Source: Bacteroidota bacterium (GTDB taxonomy: Bacteria > Bacteroidota > Bacteroidia > Bacteroidales > F082). From it: a stretch of 64,000 nucleotides of DNA. How positions within the stretch are numbered: position 1 is the first letter of the stretch; every line of letters begins with the position of its first letter. The notes beneath the pieces were generated by a model. The model made no database searches, was not told where the DNA came from, and saw only the letters and a list, made by a program, of their open reading frames with translations. Location: positions 62,001 through 126,000 of the forward strand of contig WOUZ01000003.1 in assembly GCA_009773165.1 (NCBI GenBank), in the 5' to 3' direction. The position numbers were made by a program, and so were the translations under genes. Positions 2,480-45,281 of this stretch are shown here, piece after piece.

Positions 2480-2507
2480 TGATCAAATTTAGCTGTACTT
2501 ACGAGGT

Positions 2508-3401
2508 ATGAGTAGTGTGGAATCTGTTGATTACAGGAGAGTAATTGATGTTGAGAAGGTTATTGCGGAGAAAAATCCTGCATTAGCTAAGATAATTCCA
2601 GGTTTTATCGTCAGCTATTTAAAGAGGATCATTCATCAGGATGAAGTAAACGATTTTCTTTATTATGCCAGAGATAAATTTGGGCTCGACTTCGTTGATG
2701 CGGCCGTTGACACTTTTAAACCTGCCGTTGTAACAAAAGGAATTCATAACCTCGCCGAAACAAAGCGTATGGTTGTGGCAAGCAATCACCCTCTTGGAGG
2801 CCTCGATGGTATAGTTCTCATGCAGGCTATCGGTAAAGTTCGCCAGGATATTCAGTTTCCTGTTAATGATATTTTGTTGTATCTGACCAATTTAAAGCCA
2901 CTTTTTGTGCCAATTAACAAACATGGAAGCAATGCTGAGAATATTCGGATACTTGATGAAACTTTCAAGGGTGACGCCGTTATCAGCTATTTCCCATTTG
3001 GGTTGGTTTCACGAAAGGAAAATGGTATTATTCGCGACCTCGACTGGAAGAAAACATTTCTTGCAAAAGCAAAAAAGTTTCAACGTGATATCATACCAAC
3101 ACATATCAACGGAAGAAACTCTTCTTTTTTCTATAATCTTTCAAACTTAAGAAAAAAATTAGGTATCAAAGCTAACATCGAAATGCTTTACCTTGCTGAT
3201 GAGTTTTTTAAACAAAACAACAAAAGCATAACAATTACATTTGGTAAACCAATCCCTTATGAGGTTTTTGATAAACGTTTCACCGATAATCAATGGGCTG
3301 AAAAACTCAGGGGATTTGTTTATTTTCTTGCAGAACATCCGGATGCAACCTTCGATCCGAATGTGGATTATTTCAAAAACCAAATTGCAAAAGCCAAATA
3401 A
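2508..3401 (+). CDS. GlsA/PlsC-like O-acyltransferase (aminolipid synthesis)
   Basis: A 297-residue lysophospholipid-acyltransferase-like protein. The core motif is NHPLGGLDG at about residues 93-101, equivalent to the HX4D catalytic motif of the family but with five residues between His and Asp. A second conserved block, ISYFPFGLVSRKENG, lies near residue 160. The next gene (starting 6 bases downstream) encodes a GNAT-fold N-acyltransferase. This pairing matches the Bacteroides glsB/glsA system, in which GlsB N-acylates glycine and GlsA O-acylates the product to give glycine lipids; ornithine-lipid OlsF-type enzymes use the same two folds. I infer the same job here. The amino acid substrate cannot be read from sequence. 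Often mis-annotated as hemolysin. Confidence 0.8.
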   Translation: MSSVESVDYRRVIDVEKVIAEKNPALAKIIPGFIVSYLKRIIHQDEVNDFLYYARDKFGLDFVDAAVDTFKPAVVTKGIHNLAETKRMVVASNHPLGGLDGIVLMQAIGKVRQDIQFPVNDILLYLTNLKPLFVPINKHGSNAENIRILDETFKGDAVISYFPFGLVSRKENGIIRDLDWKKTFLAKAKKFQRDIIPTHINGRNSSFFYNLSNLRKKLGIKANIEMLYLADEFFKQNNKSITITFGKPIPYEVFDKRFTDNQWAEKLRGFVYFLAEHPDATFDPNVDYFKNQIAKAK

Positions 3402-4357: not shown

Positions 4358-4977
4358 TAATTAAAGAAGCAACATTTGTTGCAAGTAATGCCAGGTTAGA
4401 GCAACTTCCTGCTTCAACAATGCCGGAATATGCATTTGTTGGCAGATCAAATGTTGGAAAATCTTCATTAATCAATATGATTTGTTCCCGAAAAGGGCTG
4501 GCAAAAACTTCTGGGAAACCTGGTAAAACGATTACTATCAATCATTTCATTATTAATGGCTCATGGTATCTTGTTGATTTGCCAGGTTATGGCTATGCCA
4601 AACGTTCCAAAGACGCGCGTGAAAAATGGAGCGTTCTCATGGATTCTTATCTTTTGAATCGTACTAATCTCATCACAACTTTTATATTGATTGACTCAAG
4701 AATTGAACCTCAAAAATCTGATCTTCAGTTAATGGAGTGGATGGGGGAGCATGCATTGCCTTTTGTCATTGTATTCACAAAATCGGATAAACTTGGTGCT
4801 GTGAATCTCGAAAAGTCGGTTAACACCTACAAAAAACAGCTCCTCCTTCAATGGGAAGAGCTGCCTCCTGTTATTGTTACTTCTTCTGAGCTACGAAAAG
4901 GTAAAGAAGAAATACTCGATTATATTGATTCAAATAATCAGCATTTTGATCCTTATTCCAATTCAATCAGAACGTGA
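4354..4977 (+). CDS. engB: Ribosome-biogenesis GTPase EngB (YsxC/YihA)
   Basis: A 207-residue TrmE-Era-EngA-EngB-type GTPase. The G1 loop GRSNVGKSS is at residues 30-38, the G2 region KPGKT at 55-59, G3 DLPGYGYA at about 75-82, and G4 TKSD near 145. The arrangement and length fit EngB, which is needed for 50S subunit assembly in characterised bacteria. The start overlaps the previous stop by 4 bases (ATGA). The 3' end overlaps the oppositely transcribed biotin-carrier gene by 25 bases (4953-4977), so the last eight codons of each are antisense to the other. Confidence 0.95.
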   Translation: MIIKEATFVASNARLEQLPASTMPEYAFVGRSNVGKSSLINMICSRKGLAKTSGKPGKTITINHFIINGSWYLVDLPGYGYAKRSKDAREKWSVLMDSYLLNRTNLITTFILIDSRIEPQKSDLQLMEWMGEHALPFVIVFTKSDKLGAVNLEKSVNTYKKQLLLQWEELPPVIVTSSELRKGKEEILDYIDSNNQHFDPYSNSIRT

Positions 4978-39106: not shown

Positions 39107-39135
39107 TTGGTAATTAAAAAAAAGTTGTTTCTTTG
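39107..39135 (+). promoter_or_regulatory. Candidate promoter of the methionine operon leader
   Basis: TTG at 39107-39109 and TTTCTTTG at 39128-39135 (one mismatch to TAnnTTTG, followed by C) are 18 bases apart. Transcription would start near 39142, a dozen bases before the first leader ORF. Confidence 0.45.
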
Positions 39136-39153
39136 CAGTCTCAAAAATAGAAA

Positions 39154-39207
39154 ATGAAATTAACAGCAATGAATATGATGTCCATGATGATGCAGGAGCG
39201 ATCCTGA
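39154..39207 (+). CDS. Methionine-rich leader peptide 1 (attenuator)
   Basis: A 17-codon ORF encoding MKLTAMNMMSMMMQERS, with 7 methionines, six of them within residues 6-13. The next structure is a rho-independent terminator (39241-39273). The sequence CTGACGTGG (39204-39212, overlapping the TGA stop) can pair with CCCCGTCAG (39246-39254), which includes the 5' arm of that terminator: eight pairs with one mismatch. A ribosome stalled at the Met codons leaves this arm free (antiterminator forms, read-through); one that reaches the stop covers it (terminator forms). This is classical ribosome-mediated attenuation, responding to Met-tRNA, ahead of methionine-pathway genes. Too short for ordinary gene finders. 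Translation itself is not proven. Confidence 0.8.
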   Translation: MKLTAMNMMSMMMQERS

Positions 39208-39240
39208 CGTGGAATCATATTGATATGCAAAATATATATG

Positions 39241-39273
39241 AAAACCCCCGTCAGAAATTGGCGAGGGTTTTTT
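39241..39273 (+). terminator. Attenuator terminator 1 of the methionine leader
   Basis: AAAACCC-C-CGTC (39241-39252) pairs with GGCG-A-GGGTTTT (39260-39271): eleven pairs, one C-A mismatch, a 7-base loop and a T-run to 39273. Its 5' arm is also the 3' arm of antiterminator 1. Confidence 0.82.
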
Positions 39274-39292
39274 GTTTTAAGCAAACGAAGAA

Positions 39293-39385
39293 ATGAAAAA
39301 ATACAGCTTGAATTCAGTAATGACAACAATGAAATCTATGTCGGATATGATGTGGATGTGTGTTTTATTGCAGAAGCCAGGCTGA
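39293..39385 (+). CDS. Methionine-rich leader peptide 2 (attenuator)
   Basis: A 30-codon ORF whose product has methionine at positions 1, 10, 13, 16, 19, 20 and 22 (core MTTMKSMSDMMWM) and ends LLQKPG. Its last codons TTGCAGAAG (39368-39376) and AGGCT (39379-39383) are perfectly complementary to CTTCTGCAA (39415-39423) and AGCCT (39410-39414): a 14-pair antiterminator with a two-base bulge that uses up the 5' arm of the terminator at 39409-39445. A ribosome stalled for Met-tRNA upstream frees this arm; one at the stop codon covers it. The peptide is unrelated to leader 1 apart from Met content, but the layout is the same. It lies 80 bases before metY. Confidence 0.82.
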   Translation: MKKYSLNSVMTTMKSMSDMMWMCVLLQKPG

Positions 39386-39408
39386 GAATAAATATTTAAT
39401 AACCAGTT

Positions 39409-39445
39409 AAGCCTCTTCTGCAAATTGCCGGGGAGGTTTTTTTTT
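39409..39445 (+). terminator. Attenuator terminator 2 of the methionine leader
   Basis: AAGCCTCTTC (39409-39418) pairs with GGGGAGGTTT (39430-39439), including three G-U pairs, followed by T residues to 39445. It is 20 bases before the metY ATG and competes with antiterminator 2. Confidence 0.8.
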
Positions 39446-39464: not shown

Positions 39465-40736
39465 ATGTCACATTATCAATTTGAAACAGAAGCACTTCAT
39501 GCAGGTCATGATACAACACGCACCGAAGGAACTCGTGCAGTTCCAATCTATCAGTCAACATCATATGTGTTTAAAAGTGCAGAGCACGCTGCTAATCTTT
39601 TTTCTTTGGCTGAGTCAGGATTTATTTATACAAGGCTGAATAATCCTACCAATGATATATTGGAGCAGCGGCTAACAGCACTGGATGGAGGCATAGGATC
39701 AGTGGTTTTTGCGAGTGGTGCAGCCGCTATAGCAACAACATTACTTACCCTTTTAAAGAATGGAGATCATATCGTTGCTTCTTCGCATTTATATGGAGGA
39801 ACCTGGAACTTGCTTCAGGTGACGTTGCGGAGATATGGAATCCATACAGATTTCGTTGATCCAATAGATCCTGAGAATTTTAAGAAAGCTATAAAGGAAA
39901 ACACAAGGGCTGTTTTTATCGAGACCCTTGGTAACCCAAAGTTGAATCTTCTTGATATTGAGAAGATTGCTGATTATGCGCACGAAGCAGGTGTTCCTTT
40001 GATTGTAGATAATACAGTAGCCACACCCTACTTATGCAAACCTATTGACTTTGGTGCGGATATTATTGTTTACTCATTAACAAAATATATTGGCGGACAA
40101 GGTACTTCATTAGGTGGTGCAGTAGTTGATTCCGGCAAGTTCAATTGGTCGAATGGAAAATTTCCTGAGTTCACCTCTCCCAATCCAGGATTTCATGGAT
40201 TGGTATTGACAGAAGCTTTGGGTCAAGCGGCTTTCATTGCAAAACTACGTCTTGAAGGCTTGCGGGATCTTGGGGCTGCTGCCAGTCCGTTCAACACTTT
40301 TCAATTAATACAAGGCTTAGAAACTTTGCCTCTTCGCATCATCCGACATTCAGAAAATGCCCTTAAACTTGCGCAGTGGCTCGGGCAACATCCTGCTGTT
40401 GCATGGGTGAATTACCCGGGATTGCCAACCCATCCTACCTATCACCTGGTTGAAAAATATCTTCCTTTGGGACAAAGTGGATTACTAACATTTGGACTTA
40501 AAGGTGGTTATGAAGCAGCATGCAAGGTTGTCAATACCACAAAACTTTTCTCGTTGCTTGCCAATATAGGTGATACCAAGTCGCTGATCATTCACCCGGC
40601 CAGCACTACACATCAGCAATTGTCAGACAGCGAACAACTTGCATCAGGTGTAACACCAGATCTTATCCGTGTTTCTGTAGGAATAGAAAACATCAACGAC
40701 CTGATCACAGATCTGAATAACGCAATCACCGCCTAA
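39465..40736 (+). CDS. metY: O-acetylhomoserine sulfhydrylase
   Basis: A 423-residue PLP enzyme of the Cys/Met-metabolism family. The PLP lysine is Lys207 in VYSLTKYIGG; the start FETEALHAGHDTTRTEGTRAVPIYQSTSYVF, ASGAAAIATTLLTLLKNGDH (cofactor phosphate region) and the long insert after the lysine (KFNWSNGKFPEF) match O-acetylhomoserine (thiol)-lyases rather than cystathionine synthases. It turns O-acetylhomoserine and sulfide into homocysteine. It leads the operon metY-metX-aspartokinase/homoserine dehydrogenase (gaps of 10 and 13 bases) and lies directly behind two methionine attenuators. A separate methionine synthase would be needed elsewhere. Confidence 0.93.
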   Translation: MSHYQFETEALHAGHDTTRTEGTRAVPIYQSTSYVFKSAEHAANLFSLAESGFIYTRLNNPTNDILEQRLTALDGGIGSVVFASGAAAIATTLLTLLKNGDHIVASSHLYGGTWNLLQVTLRRYGIHTDFVDPIDPENFKKAIKENTRAVFIETLGNPKLNLLDIEKIADYAHEAGVPLIVDNTVATPYLCKPIDFGADIIVYSLTKYIGGQGTSLGGAVVDSGKFNWSNGKFPEFTSPNPGFHGLVLTEALGQAAFIAKLRLEGLRDLGAAASPFNTFQLIQGLETLPLRIIRHSENALKLAQWLGQHPAVAWVNYPGLPTHPTYHLVEKYLPLGQSGLLTFGLKGGYEAACKVVNTTKLFSLLANIGDTKSLIIHPASTTHQQLSDSEQLASGVTPDLIRVSVGIENINDLITDLNNAITA

Positions 40737-40746
40737 AACCTTTTTT

Positions 40747-41784
40747 ATGTCTAGGAGTAAGAATCTGAAGTTTCATAGCCAACAGCAATTTCAATCCTTC
40801 AATGGTACGTTGTTTCCTGAGCTTGTCTTATCATATGAAGTTTTCGGACCAGCGTTGGAAGAGAAAAAGCCGGTTGTTTTGGTGTGTCACGCACTTACGG
40901 GCAATTCAACAATCACCGGTGAGAAGGGTTGGTGGAATGATCTGATAGGAGAGGACAGACTCATTTCGTTATCAAAATTTACCGTAATTGGAATCAATAT
41001 TCCCGGCAATGGTTATCATTCGGATGAAAAAGCCACCTATGCTCAATACAGAAATTTAAACGTCAGGGATATTGCAAAACTTTTTGTAAACCTTTTGCGG
41101 GAAATTGGAGTAAGTCAGCTGTTTGTAGCAATAGGTGGTTCGTTAGGTGGCGGTATTTGTTGGGAAATAGCAGCCACATTTCCCGATTTTGTTCAAACAA
41201 TAATACCAGTGGCTACCGACTGGAAAGCGACTGACTGGGTGCTGGCACACAACAAAGTTCAGGAACAAATTTTGATACACTCCTCTGATCCACTGCACGA
41301 TGCGCGTATGATGGCCATGATGTTCTACAGAACACCCGAATCGTTAAAGATGAAATTTGACAGAAGTATTAATCCTTCCAATGGATTGTTTAACATTGAA
41401 ACCTGGCTATTGCGCCATGGGGAAAAACTAAGAAATCGCTTCAATCTTGATGCATATCTTTTGATGACACATTACCTTAGTTCGCTGGATATTGGTAAAG
41501 ACAGGGGAGGGTTTCAACAGGTGGTTTCGCTTATAAAGGCGCGTGTGATTATGATAGGGGTTGATTCCGATTTGTTTTTTCAGCCGGCCGAAAACAAAGA
41601 TACAGTTGCTGTTATGAAACAGAATGGTTGCGATGCGAGTTACCGGGAAATAGTTTCAATTCATGGTCATGATAGCTTCCTGATTGAATTCGGGCAACTT
41701 ACCAATCTGCTGCAAGATGTTTTCCATGAGAGTGATCAGCTTGAAAAATCAGAATATTCCAATTATTGCGAATCAATATTATAA
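40747..41784 (+). CDS. metX: Homoserine O-acetyltransferase (MetX family)
   Basis: A 345-residue alpha/beta hydrolase-fold acyltransferase. The nucleophile elbow is GGSLGGG with Ser132; VVLVCHALTGNS (about 43-54) is the oxyanion-strand region; aspartate in GVDSDLFF (near 281) and histidine in IHGHDSFLIEFG (near 316) complete the triad. It moves acetyl from acetyl-CoA to homoserine, feeding MetY encoded just upstream. Some MetX-like proteins use succinyl-CoA or serine; the pairing with metY favours the acetylhomoserine role. It starts 10 bases after metY, and the bifunctional kinase gene starts 13 bases after it. Confidence 0.92.
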   Translation: MSRSKNLKFHSQQQFQSFNGTLFPELVLSYEVFGPALEEKKPVVLVCHALTGNSTITGEKGWWNDLIGEDRLISLSKFTVIGINIPGNGYHSDEKATYAQYRNLNVRDIAKLFVNLLREIGVSQLFVAIGGSLGGGICWEIAATFPDFVQTIIPVATDWKATDWVLAHNKVQEQILIHSSDPLHDARMMAMMFYRTPESLKMKFDRSINPSNGLFNIETWLLRHGEKLRNRFNLDAYLLMTHYLSSLDIGKDRGGFQQVVSLIKARVIMIGVDSDLFFQPAENKDTVAVMKQNGCDASYREIVSIHGHDSFLIEFGQLTNLLQDVFHESDQLEKSEYSNYCESIL

Positions 41785-41797
41785 GAGAATTAAAAGC

Positions 41798-44200
41798 ATG
41801 AAAGTCTTAAAATTTGGAGGTAAATCGCTGGCTAATGGCGCTCCCCTTGAAAGCACATTACAGATTATTGGATCGGCGGCACGATTATCGAAAATTTTTG
41901 TTGTTTTATCAGCACGCGCTGATGCCACTGATATTCTTGAAAAAATGATTCACATGGCTGCTTCAGGTGATGATTATCAGCAAGAATTTGATGTGTTTTT
42001 TAATTATCAGGTGGCTCACACACCGCAACTTAACCTGGCTGACGAACGGTATTCCATAGGCAGAATGCTTGAAGGTGTGGCGCTTTTAGGCGAGTATTCG
42101 TTAAAGATTAAAGATCAGTTGCTTGCTTATGGAGAGCTGATCAGCTGCCGGACTGTAGTGCATCTTTTACAGGAAAGAGGTCATAAAGCACGCTTTGTCG
42201 ACGCACGTAATTTGATAAAAACAGATCAGAAATATGGATCAGCACAAGTTCTTCATGAGCTTTCCCGCGAGAACTTTCAAAGCTTTTTTGCTGATAATGA
42301 ACCTGGTACTATTGAGGTTGTTACAGGTTTCATAGGCTCAAACCTTAACAACCAAACAACTACTTTAGGGAGAAATGGTAGTAATTATACGGCTACACTT
42401 GTTGCAAGTTTTCTCGAAGCCTCTGAAGTTCAGAACTGGACCAATGTGAATGGGTTATATACCGCTAATCCCTCTATTGTTCCTGATGCGCAGATAATAA
42501 GGCACTTGTCGTTCAGGGAGGCCAATGAGCTGGCCAATTTCGGGATGCATATTCTACATGCGAAAACAATACTGCCGCTCATCGAAAAGAAAATCCCTAT
42601 TCGGATTTTAAACTCCTTTAATCCTGGTGATCCGGGGACATTCATTGATGAGGAAGGCGATGGTAAAGGAATAAAAGCAATTTCTGCCATTCAGGATGTA
42701 GCGCTTGTAAGTATGGAAGGGAGGGGCTTGCTTGGAAAGGTTGGCATCGACGGGAGAATTTTCAGTGCGCTAAGCGCTGCCGGTATCAGTGTGAGAATTA
42801 TTTCACAGGCTTCCTCCGAACGGGGTATTGGTTTCATAATTGATGCGGAGCATGCAAAGCTGGCATCAAAGGCCTTGAATCAGGAGTTTTACAAAGAAAT
42901 TGAACTTCAGGATATTAATGATATAACGATCAATAAGGAAGTCGCAGTGATTTCCATCATAAGCAGAAATCTGCAGTTTCTCGATATCGCTTACAGCTCC
43001 TTAAACAGAAATAACATCAAGCCAATTTTGATGGCAAATACCATTAACGGGGATCATATCTCATTGGTTGTAAGTAAGCAACAAATGCGTAAAGCTGTCA
43101 TTATTATCCATGGTCACATTTTTGGTGCGACAAAGAGATTGAATGTCTTTCTGTTTGGCAAGGGTAATGTTGGGAAAACCCTGTTAAATCAACTTGTGAA
43201 GTCGAAGGTCAGGATTAAAGAACGTCGTGGGTTATTGATTAATATCTTTGGAATATGTGATTCAAAAAAGCTGCTGTTACGTTCACATGACCTGGGAGAA
43301 AAATGGCTTGAAACACTCGAAAAAGAAGGTGTAACAGAATACTCAATTGATGATATCTTTAGTTATATTTCGAAGCAACACCTTGAAAATGTTGTTGTTG
43401 TTGATAATACTGCAAGTGTGAAACTGGCAGAAGACTATCCGCGTTTTATCCAGAATGGATGTGATATCGTCGCTTCCAATAAGCATGCAAATACCTTTGA
43501 GATGGGTTGGTACAACACATTTCGGGAGCAATTGCAGAACAACCACCGGCAGTTTTATTATGAAACGAACGTAGGAGCTGGCTTACCTTTGATTGATACC
43601 ATCAAACTGCTGCATGCATCAGGCGATTTTATTTATAAAATTCGTGGAGTTTTCTCAGGTTCGTTAAGTTATATCTTCAATAAATACTCTGAAAGCAAAC
43701 TGCCATTTTTTTCTGTTTTGAAGGAAGCCATTGAAAAGGGATTAACCGAACCCGATCCTCGGGAAGATTTGTCTGGTAAAGATGTTGGGCGAAAACTCCT
43801 GATTTTGGCCCGTGAGCTCGATTTGAGCGTCAATTTTCGTGATGTTCATATCGAAAGTCTCATCCCGAAATCTCTGAGAAAAGAAATGACAAAAGAAGAA
43901 TTTGTGACTCATTCGGAGGAACTTAACACCTGGTTTGAGTCGATAAAGGAAAAACTTGATCAGCATGAAGTTCTTCGGTATGTTGGGGAATTGGATTCGG
44001 TTACGGGTCGACTGGAAGTAAAACTGGATCGTATCTCTTCCAAATCTGATCTGGGATCACTCAGTGGGGCGGATTCAATTTTTGAGATTTACACCGAAGC
44101 ATATGGTGAACATCCACTGGTTATTCGAGGAGCTGGAGCTGGCGCTGAGGTAACTGCAAGGGGCGTTTTTTCTGATTTACTTCGTCTGTCAACAGTGTAG
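41798..44200 (+). CDS. thrA: Bifunctional aspartate kinase / homoserine dehydrogenase
   Basis: An 800-residue fusion. Residues 1-290 are the aspartokinase (KFGGKSLANG at 4-13; TTLGRNGSNYTATLVA near 190), about 300-450 hold ACT regulatory domains (VALVSMEGRGLLGKVGIDGR), and from about 455 there is the NAD(P) Rossmann start of homoserine dehydrogenase (NVFLFGKGNVGKTLL), then ASNKHANT, NVGAGLPLIDTIK and GVFSGSLSYIFN. It makes aspartyl phosphate and reduces aspartate semialdehyde to homoserine, the MetX substrate. Gene placement suggests a MetL-like isozyme committed to methionine; threonine inhibition cannot be judged. The frame is open further upstream, but the ATG at 41798 precedes the conserved KFGG. 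The IS element follows 44 bases after its stop. Confidence 0.94.
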   Translation: MKVLKFGGKSLANGAPLESTLQIIGSAARLSKIFVVLSARADATDILEKMIHMAASGDDYQQEFDVFFNYQVAHTPQLNLADERYSIGRMLEGVALLGEYSLKIKDQLLAYGELISCRTVVHLLQERGHKARFVDARNLIKTDQKYGSAQVLHELSRENFQSFFADNEPGTIEVVTGFIGSNLNNQTTTLGRNGSNYTATLVASFLEASEVQNWTNVNGLYTANPSIVPDAQIIRHLSFREANELANFGMHILHAKTILPLIEKKIPIRILNSFNPGDPGTFIDEEGDGKGIKAISAIQDVALVSMEGRGLLGKVGIDGRIFSALSAAGISVRIISQASSERGIGFIIDAEHAKLASKALNQEFYKEIELQDINDITINKEVAVISIISRNLQFLDIAYSSLNRNNIKPILMANTINGDHISLVVSKQQMRKAVIIIHGHIFGATKRLNVFLFGKGNVGKTLLNQLVKSKVRIKERRGLLINIFGICDSKKLLLRSHDLGEKWLETLEKEGVTEYSIDDIFSYISKQHLENVVVVDNTASVKLAEDYPRFIQNGCDIVASNKHANTFEMGWYNTFREQLQNNHRQFYYETNVGAGLPLIDTIKLLHASGDFIYKIRGVFSGSLSYIFNKYSESKLPFFSVLKEAIEKGLTEPDPREDLSGKDVGRKLLILARELDLSVNFRDVHIESLIPKSLRKEMTKEEFVTHSEELNTWFESIKEKLDQHEVLRYVGELDSVTGRLEVKLDRISSKSDLGSLSGADSIFEIYTEAYGEHPLVIRGAGAGAEVTARGVFSDLLRLSTV

Positions 44201-44244: not shown

Positions 44245-45281
44245 ACCTGAGTTCGATATAAGCAAATTGCTAAAAAAGAGTAAGTTGACCATTGTTGTTT
44301 ACCGTTTCGTACTTATTACTGGGCTTTTTAGGTAGGAATGAATAGGCTAACAATCCTGAAATCATATTAGAAATGAAATTGGCAAAGCTTCTATGCCTAG
44401 AGTGCTCGATCTGACAAATATTTTTAAGTTCATCGTTAACTGTCTCTATTATAGATCGTTTCCTTAGCATTATTTTATCATAAATCGACATAAATTGATT
44501 TTTCATATTATTTCTGATGCCTGTGATAAGATGTATTCCATCAATGAAAAGGTTCTCGAATAGCTTTTGTGAAATGTACCCTTTATCAGCAAACAGTTTT
44601 CCTGCAATTTTTTTCAAGAAATTGAAGTCTTGCAATGGCTGTCTATCGTCCACGTTTCCAGGCGTAATTACAAATTCGATAACTTCACCTTTATCATTAA
44701 TTACGATATGTAGTTTAAAACCAAAGAAATAGCCCATTGTTGACTTGCCTCGTTGAGCAATATCTTTGAATACTTTGTGGTTAAAAATTCGTTTATTCTT
44801 ACAAGCGCTCACGGCAGTTGAATCAACAAATGAAATACCCGTGCTTTTGCCAAGGCGCATTGTCTTCAAGAATATGGTCATAGGCAATAACGCCTTTTGC
44901 TGAAGTTCAACAAACCTATTGTAGGATACTGTTTCAGGAAAATAATCTATCAGATGTTTTTGTACATAATTGATATAGAAATGCTTAAGGTTTCGATATC
45001 CTCCTAAATGAAAGGCTATTAATATGGTAATTACTTCAGCGTCGTTGAGCTTTGAGGGTTTATTTCGGTGCTTTTTGCCATCAGCTTCAGGTAATTGGTG
45101 TCCCGCCATTACTTTATAAAATTCCTTGCAGAATTCATCTGCTAAATAGAAAATTTCAACTAAATTTGAGCTCTTAACATAAGGATTGATTTTGTAATGA
45201 TTTGTATTTCAACACTATATTGATACAAAACAATCCTTATTGTTTTACATTCCTGTTAAATTTCTTATGTCGAACTCAGGT
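44245..45281 (-). mobile_element. IS982-family insertion sequence, complete with target duplication
   Basis: A 1037-bp element bounded by about 24-bp imperfect inverted repeats starting ACCTGAGTTCGA (left 44245-44268; right 45258-45281, about 20 of 24 matching), and flanked by the 5-bp direct repeat TAATA (44240-44244 and 45282-45286). It carries one transposase gene on the minus strand, as in the IS982 family. It sits between the methionine operon and the dnaA terminator and breaks no recognisable gene. Near the right end AAGGATTG (45181) and CAATCCTT (45231) form an extra inverted repeat upstream of the transposase. The intact ends and target duplication imply a fairly recent insertion. Confidence 0.88.
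44270..45109 (-). CDS. IS982-family DDE transposase (start codon uncertain)
   Basis: A 279-residue transposase read from the first in-frame ATG. The DDE domain shows GISFVDSTAVSACKN (first Asp), GYFFGFKLHIVINDKGEV, LFADKGYISQKLFE (second Asp) and RSIIETVNDELKNICQIEH (Glu). Upstream of the ATG the frame stays open for 33 more codons and encodes NLVEIFYLADEFCKEF, the usual N-terminus of this family, yet contains no ATG, GTG or TTG before an in-frame stop at 45209-45211. So the true start is either a rare codon (ATC/ATT) or has been mutated, and this copy could be poorly expressed. The stop is just inside the left inverted repeat. Confidence 0.85.
   Translation of the reverse strand: MAGHQLPEADGKKHRNKPSKLNDAEVITILIAFHLGGYRNLKHFYINYVQKHLIDYFPETVSYNRFVELQQKALLPMTIFLKTMRLGKSTGISFVDSTAVSACKNKRIFNHKVFKDIAQRGKSTMGYFFGFKLHIVINDKGEVIEFVITPGNVDDRQPLQDFNFLKKIAGKLFADKGYISQKLFENLFIDGIHLITGIRNNMKNQFMSIYDKIMLRKRSIIETVNDELKNICQIEHSRHRSFANFISNMISGLLAYSFLPKKPSNKYETVNNNGQLTLF

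Follow-up and report, generated by a model that had tools for sequence, protein, structure and literature searches.

Two methionine-rich leader peptides with terminators precede metY in a Bacteroidota bacterium and probably act as attenuators in series

Organization of the metY locus

In the window (the whole stretch of 64,000 nucleotides that was analyzed, whose numbering is used throughout), the interval from a sigma-factor gene to metY holds two short, methionine-rich open reading frames, and an intrinsic terminator lies behind each of them. The features of the locus, in order, are as follows.

39107-39135, plus strand: putative Bacteroidota-type promoter, with TTG at 39107-39109 and a -7-like box, TTTCTTTG, at 39128-39135
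39154-39207, plus strand: leader ORF 1, MKLTAMNMMSMMMQERS, with 7 Met in 17 residues counting the start
39166-39229, plus strand: predicted protector (1:2) hairpin of unit 1, formed by the Met codon run and the stretch around and after the stop codon (from folds)
39204-39212, plus strand: predicted antiterminator 5' arm of unit 1, overlapping the stop codon (from pairing, codon spacing and folds)
39240-39272, plus strand: intrinsic terminator hairpin of unit 1, followed by a T run; the antiterminator uses the same 5' arm, 39246-39254
39293-39385, plus strand: leader ORF 2, MKKYSLNSVMTTMKSMSDMMWMCVLLQKPG, with 7 Met in 30 residues
39368-39383, plus strand: predicted antiterminator 5' arm of unit 2 (from pairing, codon spacing and folds)
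39409-39439, plus strand: intrinsic terminator hairpin of unit 2, followed by a T run; the antiterminator uses the same 5' arm, 39410-39423
39465-40736, plus strand: metY, O-acetylhomoserine sulfhydrylase (TIGR01326 above cut-off; PF01053)
40747-41784, plus strand: metX-like homoserine acyltransferase (best models TIGR01392/PRK00175, below cut-offs; PF00561)
41798-44200, plus strand: bifunctional aspartokinase/homoserine dehydrogenase, thrA-like (PRK09436 above cut-off; PF00696, PF00742)

A preliminary description, made from the letters of the window, had named the downstream genes metY, metX and aspartokinase/homoserine dehydrogenase; the first and third names stand above model cut-offs, and the metX assignment is a best-model match below them. 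By eye, a transposase-like ORF (44270-45109, minus strand) lies directly downstream of the operon and may be related to the operon's patchy occurrence. The same description's two Met-rich ORFs with a terminator after each were confirmed by direct reading. With six internal Met each, the leaders rank first and second among the 1544 window ORFs of 10-40 amino acids, a count reached by none of 64,151 ORFs of that length from 30 first-order Markov shuffles. As a ribosome-mediated attenuator requires, an intrinsic terminator sits between each leader and metY; a simpler terminator scan listed that of unit 1 and lacked that of unit 2. At the gathering threshold, Rfam models match the window just once, at a tRNA far from the leaders, and a T-box before metY was rejected since no Rfam T-box matched the window at that threshold.

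The -7-like box lies 18 nt before the leader 1 ATG and was identified by what we take to be the Bacteroidota promoter consensus; a sigma-70 scan returned no promoter at 39107-39135. The box is kept in the two other loci of the genus (L002 and L003), and TAnnTTTG occurs 5-22 nt before the leader 1 ATG in L138, L139, L005, L111, L112, L031, L144, L148 and L164, but was not found so placed in L004 or in most loci of family f124. One promoter-like box precedes unit 1 in the window and the two units follow in order.

Over the whole genome, an ATGATG-run pattern occurs at 27 places; the detector described below found an ORF with a hairpin at five, one being the metY leader itself, and the other four were rejected by eye as not leader-like, among them L209, which is the end of a coding frame with that frame's terminator. 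The genome may hold other Met leaders beyond this pattern.

Predicted alternative folds of the two units

The end of each leader had been proposed to pair with the 5' arm of its terminator, and these arms were recovered in both units. In unit 1, CTGACG at 39204-39209 plus GG at 39211-39212 pairs with 39246-39254, a pairing equaled by 12 of 200 mononucleotide shuffles and thus marginal on its own. The pairing of unit 2, 39368-39383 with 39410-39423, comprises 14 pairs with a 2-nt bulge inside and was equaled by none of 200 shuffles of the leader end.

The last Met codon starts 14 nt before the antiterminator arm in leader 1 and 12 nt before it in leader 2, and the footprint of a ribosome is taken to end about 15 nt past the P-site codon. 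When we constrained the folds accordingly, a ribosome held at the last Met codon gave the antiterminator and one held at the stop codon gave the terminator, in both window units. The folds and the codon spacing thus agree with the earlier proposal that a ribosome at the stop codon covers the arm and one stalled at Met codons frees it. With the stalled ribosome, the unit 2 antiterminator persists at full length (-20.3 kcal/mol). In unit 1 the terminator wins at full-length equilibrium even with a stalled ribosome, and in ribosome-free folds it wins in 45 of the 46 units collected below, so timing, that is the order of synthesis, must decide.

Ribosome-free folds also place the arm in an upstream pairing, the protector, with probability 0.93 in unit 1 and 0.75 in unit 2, which matches the classic trp scheme; among the units of relatives the same folds give a mixed picture. 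An element without a protector, in which failed initiation would amount to read-through, was ruled out by the strong protectors of both window units.

Occurrence among relatives

We searched upstream of metY with a detector that takes an ORF with at least 3 internal Met, or with 2 Met and 4 Met plus Cys, and a terminator within 110 nt. It returned 46 units, which belong to 28 metY loci of a single MetY clade; 18 of these loci are tandem. No unit was detected at 50 metY loci outside this set, at another 15 from the phylum or at the 11 remaining loci of the clade (SAM-I or unassigned), and Markov-shuffled upstream regions gave a unit in 1 of 224 and no tandem. The attenuator loci include those of the window's genus (L002, L003) and family (L004, L138, L139), other families of the order (L005, L111, L112, L113) as well as L031 from a Flavobacteriaceae genome and family f124 of the class. 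Within the window's family few genomes have the metY of this clade (6 of 173 at E 1e-155), which suggests that operon and leader were transferred or lost together.

Across these loci the in-frame Met codon runs, the terminators and the cognate arms are kept despite divergence, a favourable outcome of the check that the preliminary description had named for the metY upstream regions of related Bacteroidota. ATG falls by frame as 236:3:8 over all 46 leaders, a bias partly built in because detection needs in-frame Met; shuffled ORFs passing the same Met rule give 58:9:10. In 29 units from 16 loci, Met is placed 12-35 nt before the arm and kept there while the peptides diverge: at its peak, 18-23 nt upstream of the arm, Met makes up 41 of 58 codons (0.71), and from 5 nt before the arm onward its share does not exceed 0.07.

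These data bear on whether the ORFs might be incidental to a metabolite riboswitch of an undescribed kind. Several paired elements and the presence of SAM-I at the same place in relatives would suit such a riboswitch, yet there is no Rfam match, the frame bias exceeds that of the shuffled control, and relatives differ widely in leader sequence and spacing; we regard this explanation as highly improbable, the least credible of those weighed here.

That only one unit answers to methionine, the other being a decaying duplicate or a constant damper, deserves more weight, although we think it unlikely. One detected unit only is present at 10 of the 28 loci, the pairing and covariation of unit 1 are the weaker, and in L138 a promoter-like box lies 4 nt before the second leader, so that the units may not always be in series. 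On the other side, both units occur in a kept order in several families, and they differ in their endings, KEIYAK-like in unit 1 leaders and LxYYPN-like in unit 2 leaders. These distinct shared endings indicate that the pair is old and no fresh duplicate.

Many leaders of f124 carry Cys too, e.g., MKTIANSMMMCCEMMQMCIPNCCYQK (L140) and MKNNNKMCCMMMMCMCAPP (L144), and leaders rich in both Met and Cys codons lie upstream of metY in L140-L150, L152, L154, L155, L157 and L164. MetY uses reduced sulphur, which makes it plausible from these codon runs that such leaders are joint sensors of both sulphur amino acids.

Some further elements were seen near these leaders. By eye, L161 has a possible weak leader, MKSTSFCMWMTKQKSFWSLTIT, before a terminator at about -150 to -85 from metY, which the detector did not report. 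In L140, L145 and L157 a small ORF of about 50-60 residues, with a common SLLFxxYxxEEE-like end (by eye), lies between attenuator and metY at about -260 to -70.

Cognate pairing and covariation

Leader ends pair with their own terminators far more strongly than with permuted ones. The energy comparison over all 46 units gave -13.92 kcal/mol for cognate pairs and -9.68 for permuted ones, with 0 of 20,000 permutations as low. A subset of 29 units of 16 loci, hand-picked from the 28 for diversity, gave -14.73 versus -9.89 (again 0 of 20,000), the 12 omitted being f124 loci, several of them weakly paired. Among these 29 units, 6 have their own terminator as the best of all partners, because relatives have arm motifs in common. 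Taken unit by unit, mononucleotide shuffles were as strong in no more than 10 of 200 cases for 30 of the 46 units; the 16 others are mostly from f124 and include L111 unit 2 (108 of 200) and f124 loci L143 (114), L145 (81), L140 (71) and L149 (68).

Compensatory changes in the terminator and antiterminator arms, named beforehand as a check, were found in unit 2 and are weak in unit 1. We used two alignments, A1 with 8 of the 18 tandem loci and A2 with 11 of the 28 loci, both with structures from L004. The unit 2 antiterminator is paired in 72 of 72 cells over 8 loci, with 3 of 9 pairs changed on both sides and a covariation of 0.298, compared with 0.149 after shuffling (the observed value was reached in 1 of 500 shuffles) and no more than 0.083 after sliding. 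Within the window's genus, too, pairs of unit 2 change on both sides (T-A to G-C against L003 and against L002), with one broken cell in L002. For unit 1, 88.3% of cells are paired, one pair is changed on both sides and 49 of 500 shuffles covary as highly; its six core pairs are invariant in the genus and hence uninformative.

TnaC senses tryptophan in the ribosome tunnel, and the leaders might likewise be arrest peptides that sense free Met, SAM or homocysteine, the pathway offering several candidate ligands for short peptides with recurring endings. Away from the arm, however, the peptides have little in common beyond Met, and their conserved endings are encoded by the very stretch that forms the RNA arm, whose bases co-vary, so we consider arrest peptides very unlikely. 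An effect of the leaders on translation or RNA decay, with termination not the target, seems similarly improbable. L113, where the hairpin is strong but the T run poor (by eye), would fit such an action; against it, detected units end in a hairpin with a T-rich tail, which is the detector's own rule, and the leader arm competes for the terminator and not for the metY start.

Exchange with the SAM-I riboswitch

Textbook accounts of methionine genes feature SAM riboswitches, T-boxes and repressors, and the preliminary description had called SAM riboswitches the usual device here. SAM-I lies upstream of metY in 10 of the clade's 11 non-attenuator members for which upstream sequence was at hand and, within the fetched stretch, in 14 of the 15 further loci of the phylum (some 760 nt away in L238). 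Of 12 other-clade loci scanned with 1.5 kb of flank (L006-L015, L114 and L115), 2 have it (L013 and L014), and in G005 and G010 it sits just past that flank, about 1.6 kb upstream. None of the 28 attenuator loci has SAM-I upstream of metY. A SAM riboswitch before the metY of the window was rejected, RF00162 having no match upstream of metY in the window or in L001. Within the MetY clade, attenuator and SAM-I thus exclude each other upstream of metY (28 versus 10 loci), and L161 is the clade's single locus with neither. On a MetY tree that leaves out row L006, and whose named members place the loci in the phylum, the attenuator label needs 6 changes, at least 4 of them forced by well-supported branches, and SAM-I needs 3 (at least 2), which indicates that the two replaced one another more than once.

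At the level of whole genomes, SAM-I is present in 27 of 30, and the three without it at cut-off (G051, G132 and G123) all carry the attenuator. A search near metF in G132 found no leader; G051 also has no MTHFR match. The genome of the window has one SAM-I, 116 nt before metH-metF, and SAM-I likewise precedes metH in L191, L192, L193 and L196. With SAM-I on metH-metF and the attenuator on metY, SAM and Met-tRNA would be sensed at different steps in one genome, SAM apparently at methyl transfer and Met-tRNA in the branch that makes homocysteine.

Other riboswitches of the pathway occur nearby in some relatives. L031 has SAM-I just after metY (4381-4493, plus strand) and SAM-II upstream on the opposite strand (2495-2554, minus strand), which with its tandem Met leaders makes three sulphur sensors within about 2 kb. 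SAM-II also precedes metK-like genes in L195 (7844-7947 and from 8007 onward), where they are divergent from metY, and in L192 (6735-6794).

Proposed mechanism

From the anatomy, its conservation, the codon-to-arm spacing, the cognate pairing and the exchange with SAM-I, all read from sequence, we propose that metY-metX-thrA is controlled by two ribosome-mediated transcription attenuators that are placed in series and respond to charged tRNA-Met, a reading to which we give a probability of roughly 0.88. It supposes that the leaders are translated, that ribosomes stall in them, that read-through is coupled to stalling and that both units lie on one transcript. The element has every testable feature of an attenuator except that protectors are not universal and that unit 1 covariation is weak.

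When methionine suffices, the ribosome would reach the stop codon of each leader and hide the antiterminator arm, and the terminator would form. When Met-tRNA is short, the ribosome would stall in the ATG run, whose final codons precede the arm by about one footprint. The stalled ribosome would open the protector hairpin, and the freed arm would capture the 5' half of the terminator, letting RNA polymerase read on. Read-through into metY would need passage of both units. A shortage of Met should lower initiation too, in which case the protectors of the window would favour termination and could blunt the response.

More tentatively, and at somewhat less than even odds, the observations may combine into a two-stage sensor of sulphur amino acids. 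The read-throughs of the units would multiply, and the homocysteine operon would open only under a shortage of elongator Met-tRNA, or of both Met- and Cys-tRNA in some relatives. SAM-I on metH-metF would meanwhile monitor the opposite end of the cycle, and the cassette would be old in the MetY clade, travel with the operon and swap with SAM-I at the same promoter region.

Relation to known systems and significance

The attenuators of trp, his, thr and ilv operons have a run of product codons in the leader ORF, protector, antiterminator and terminator hairpins, and codons placed one footprint before the arm. The metY leader units share this anatomy, with a predicted protector in both units of the window and a mixed picture for protectors elsewhere; what is new relative to the trp/his type is the amino acid, methionine (with Cys in some relatives), the doubling into two full units in series with one and the same codon, and the phylum. 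SAM-I (RF00162) before metY shares place, gene and pathway with the attenuator, but it is a SAM aptamer, whereas the metY leader has no aptamer and its signal would be tRNA charging.

The comparisons that follow draw on portions of the cited papers. According to a comparative screen, which itself adds Firmicutes, earlier leader-peptide systems come from Proteobacteria and Actinobacteria (PMC2965389). Leader-peptide attenuation has been suggested in Bacteroidota for Flavobacterium psychrophilum (PMC9723704) and Bacteroides thetaiotaomicron (PMC7366714); like the metY leader, these cases have short ORFs and structured leaders before operons, in F. psychrophilum amino-acid operons. The main-text passages of both papers name no methionine leader, and the F. 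psychrophilum supplements may list a Met case. The nearest tandem precedent is Salmonella mgtCBR (PMC3641672), with two short ORFs in one leader serving as attenuators in series, but there the ORFs answer to different signals, ATP and proline, whereas both metY leader ORFs have the same codon run.

The nearest Met leader is in Streptomyces lividans, where the leader peptide metL before metNIQ has been proposed to sense methionine (PMC8079986); unlike the metY leaders, as far as that part of the paper goes, it has few Met in 29 residues, is leaderless and lacks a typical terminator, and it is a single unit before transporter genes in another phylum. Mycobacterial cys operon leaders (PMC1262725) resemble the metY leaders in having runs of sulphur amino acid codons before sulphur genes, but carry Cys only, and in the portion drawn on no conserved terminator was found; the same portion reports no conserved RNA structure upstream of methionine operons of Actinobacteria. 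Our search of the literature, mostly as abstract openings and exclusive of supplements, found no methionine leader with terminator and antiterminator.

A full doubled methionine leader-peptide attenuator would extend the classic mechanism by one amino acid, one architecture and one phylum. Its clade is a natural comparison, in which metY follows SAM-I in some genomes and runs of Met or Met/Cys codons in others, and one genome would use both sensors, at two ends of the pathway. Methionine also poses a peculiar problem: its shortage would stall elongation, yet translation of the leader cannot begin without it, which makes the meaning of 'no translation' directly testable. If the units multiply, the tandem leader would be a simple natural circuit for a steeper response.
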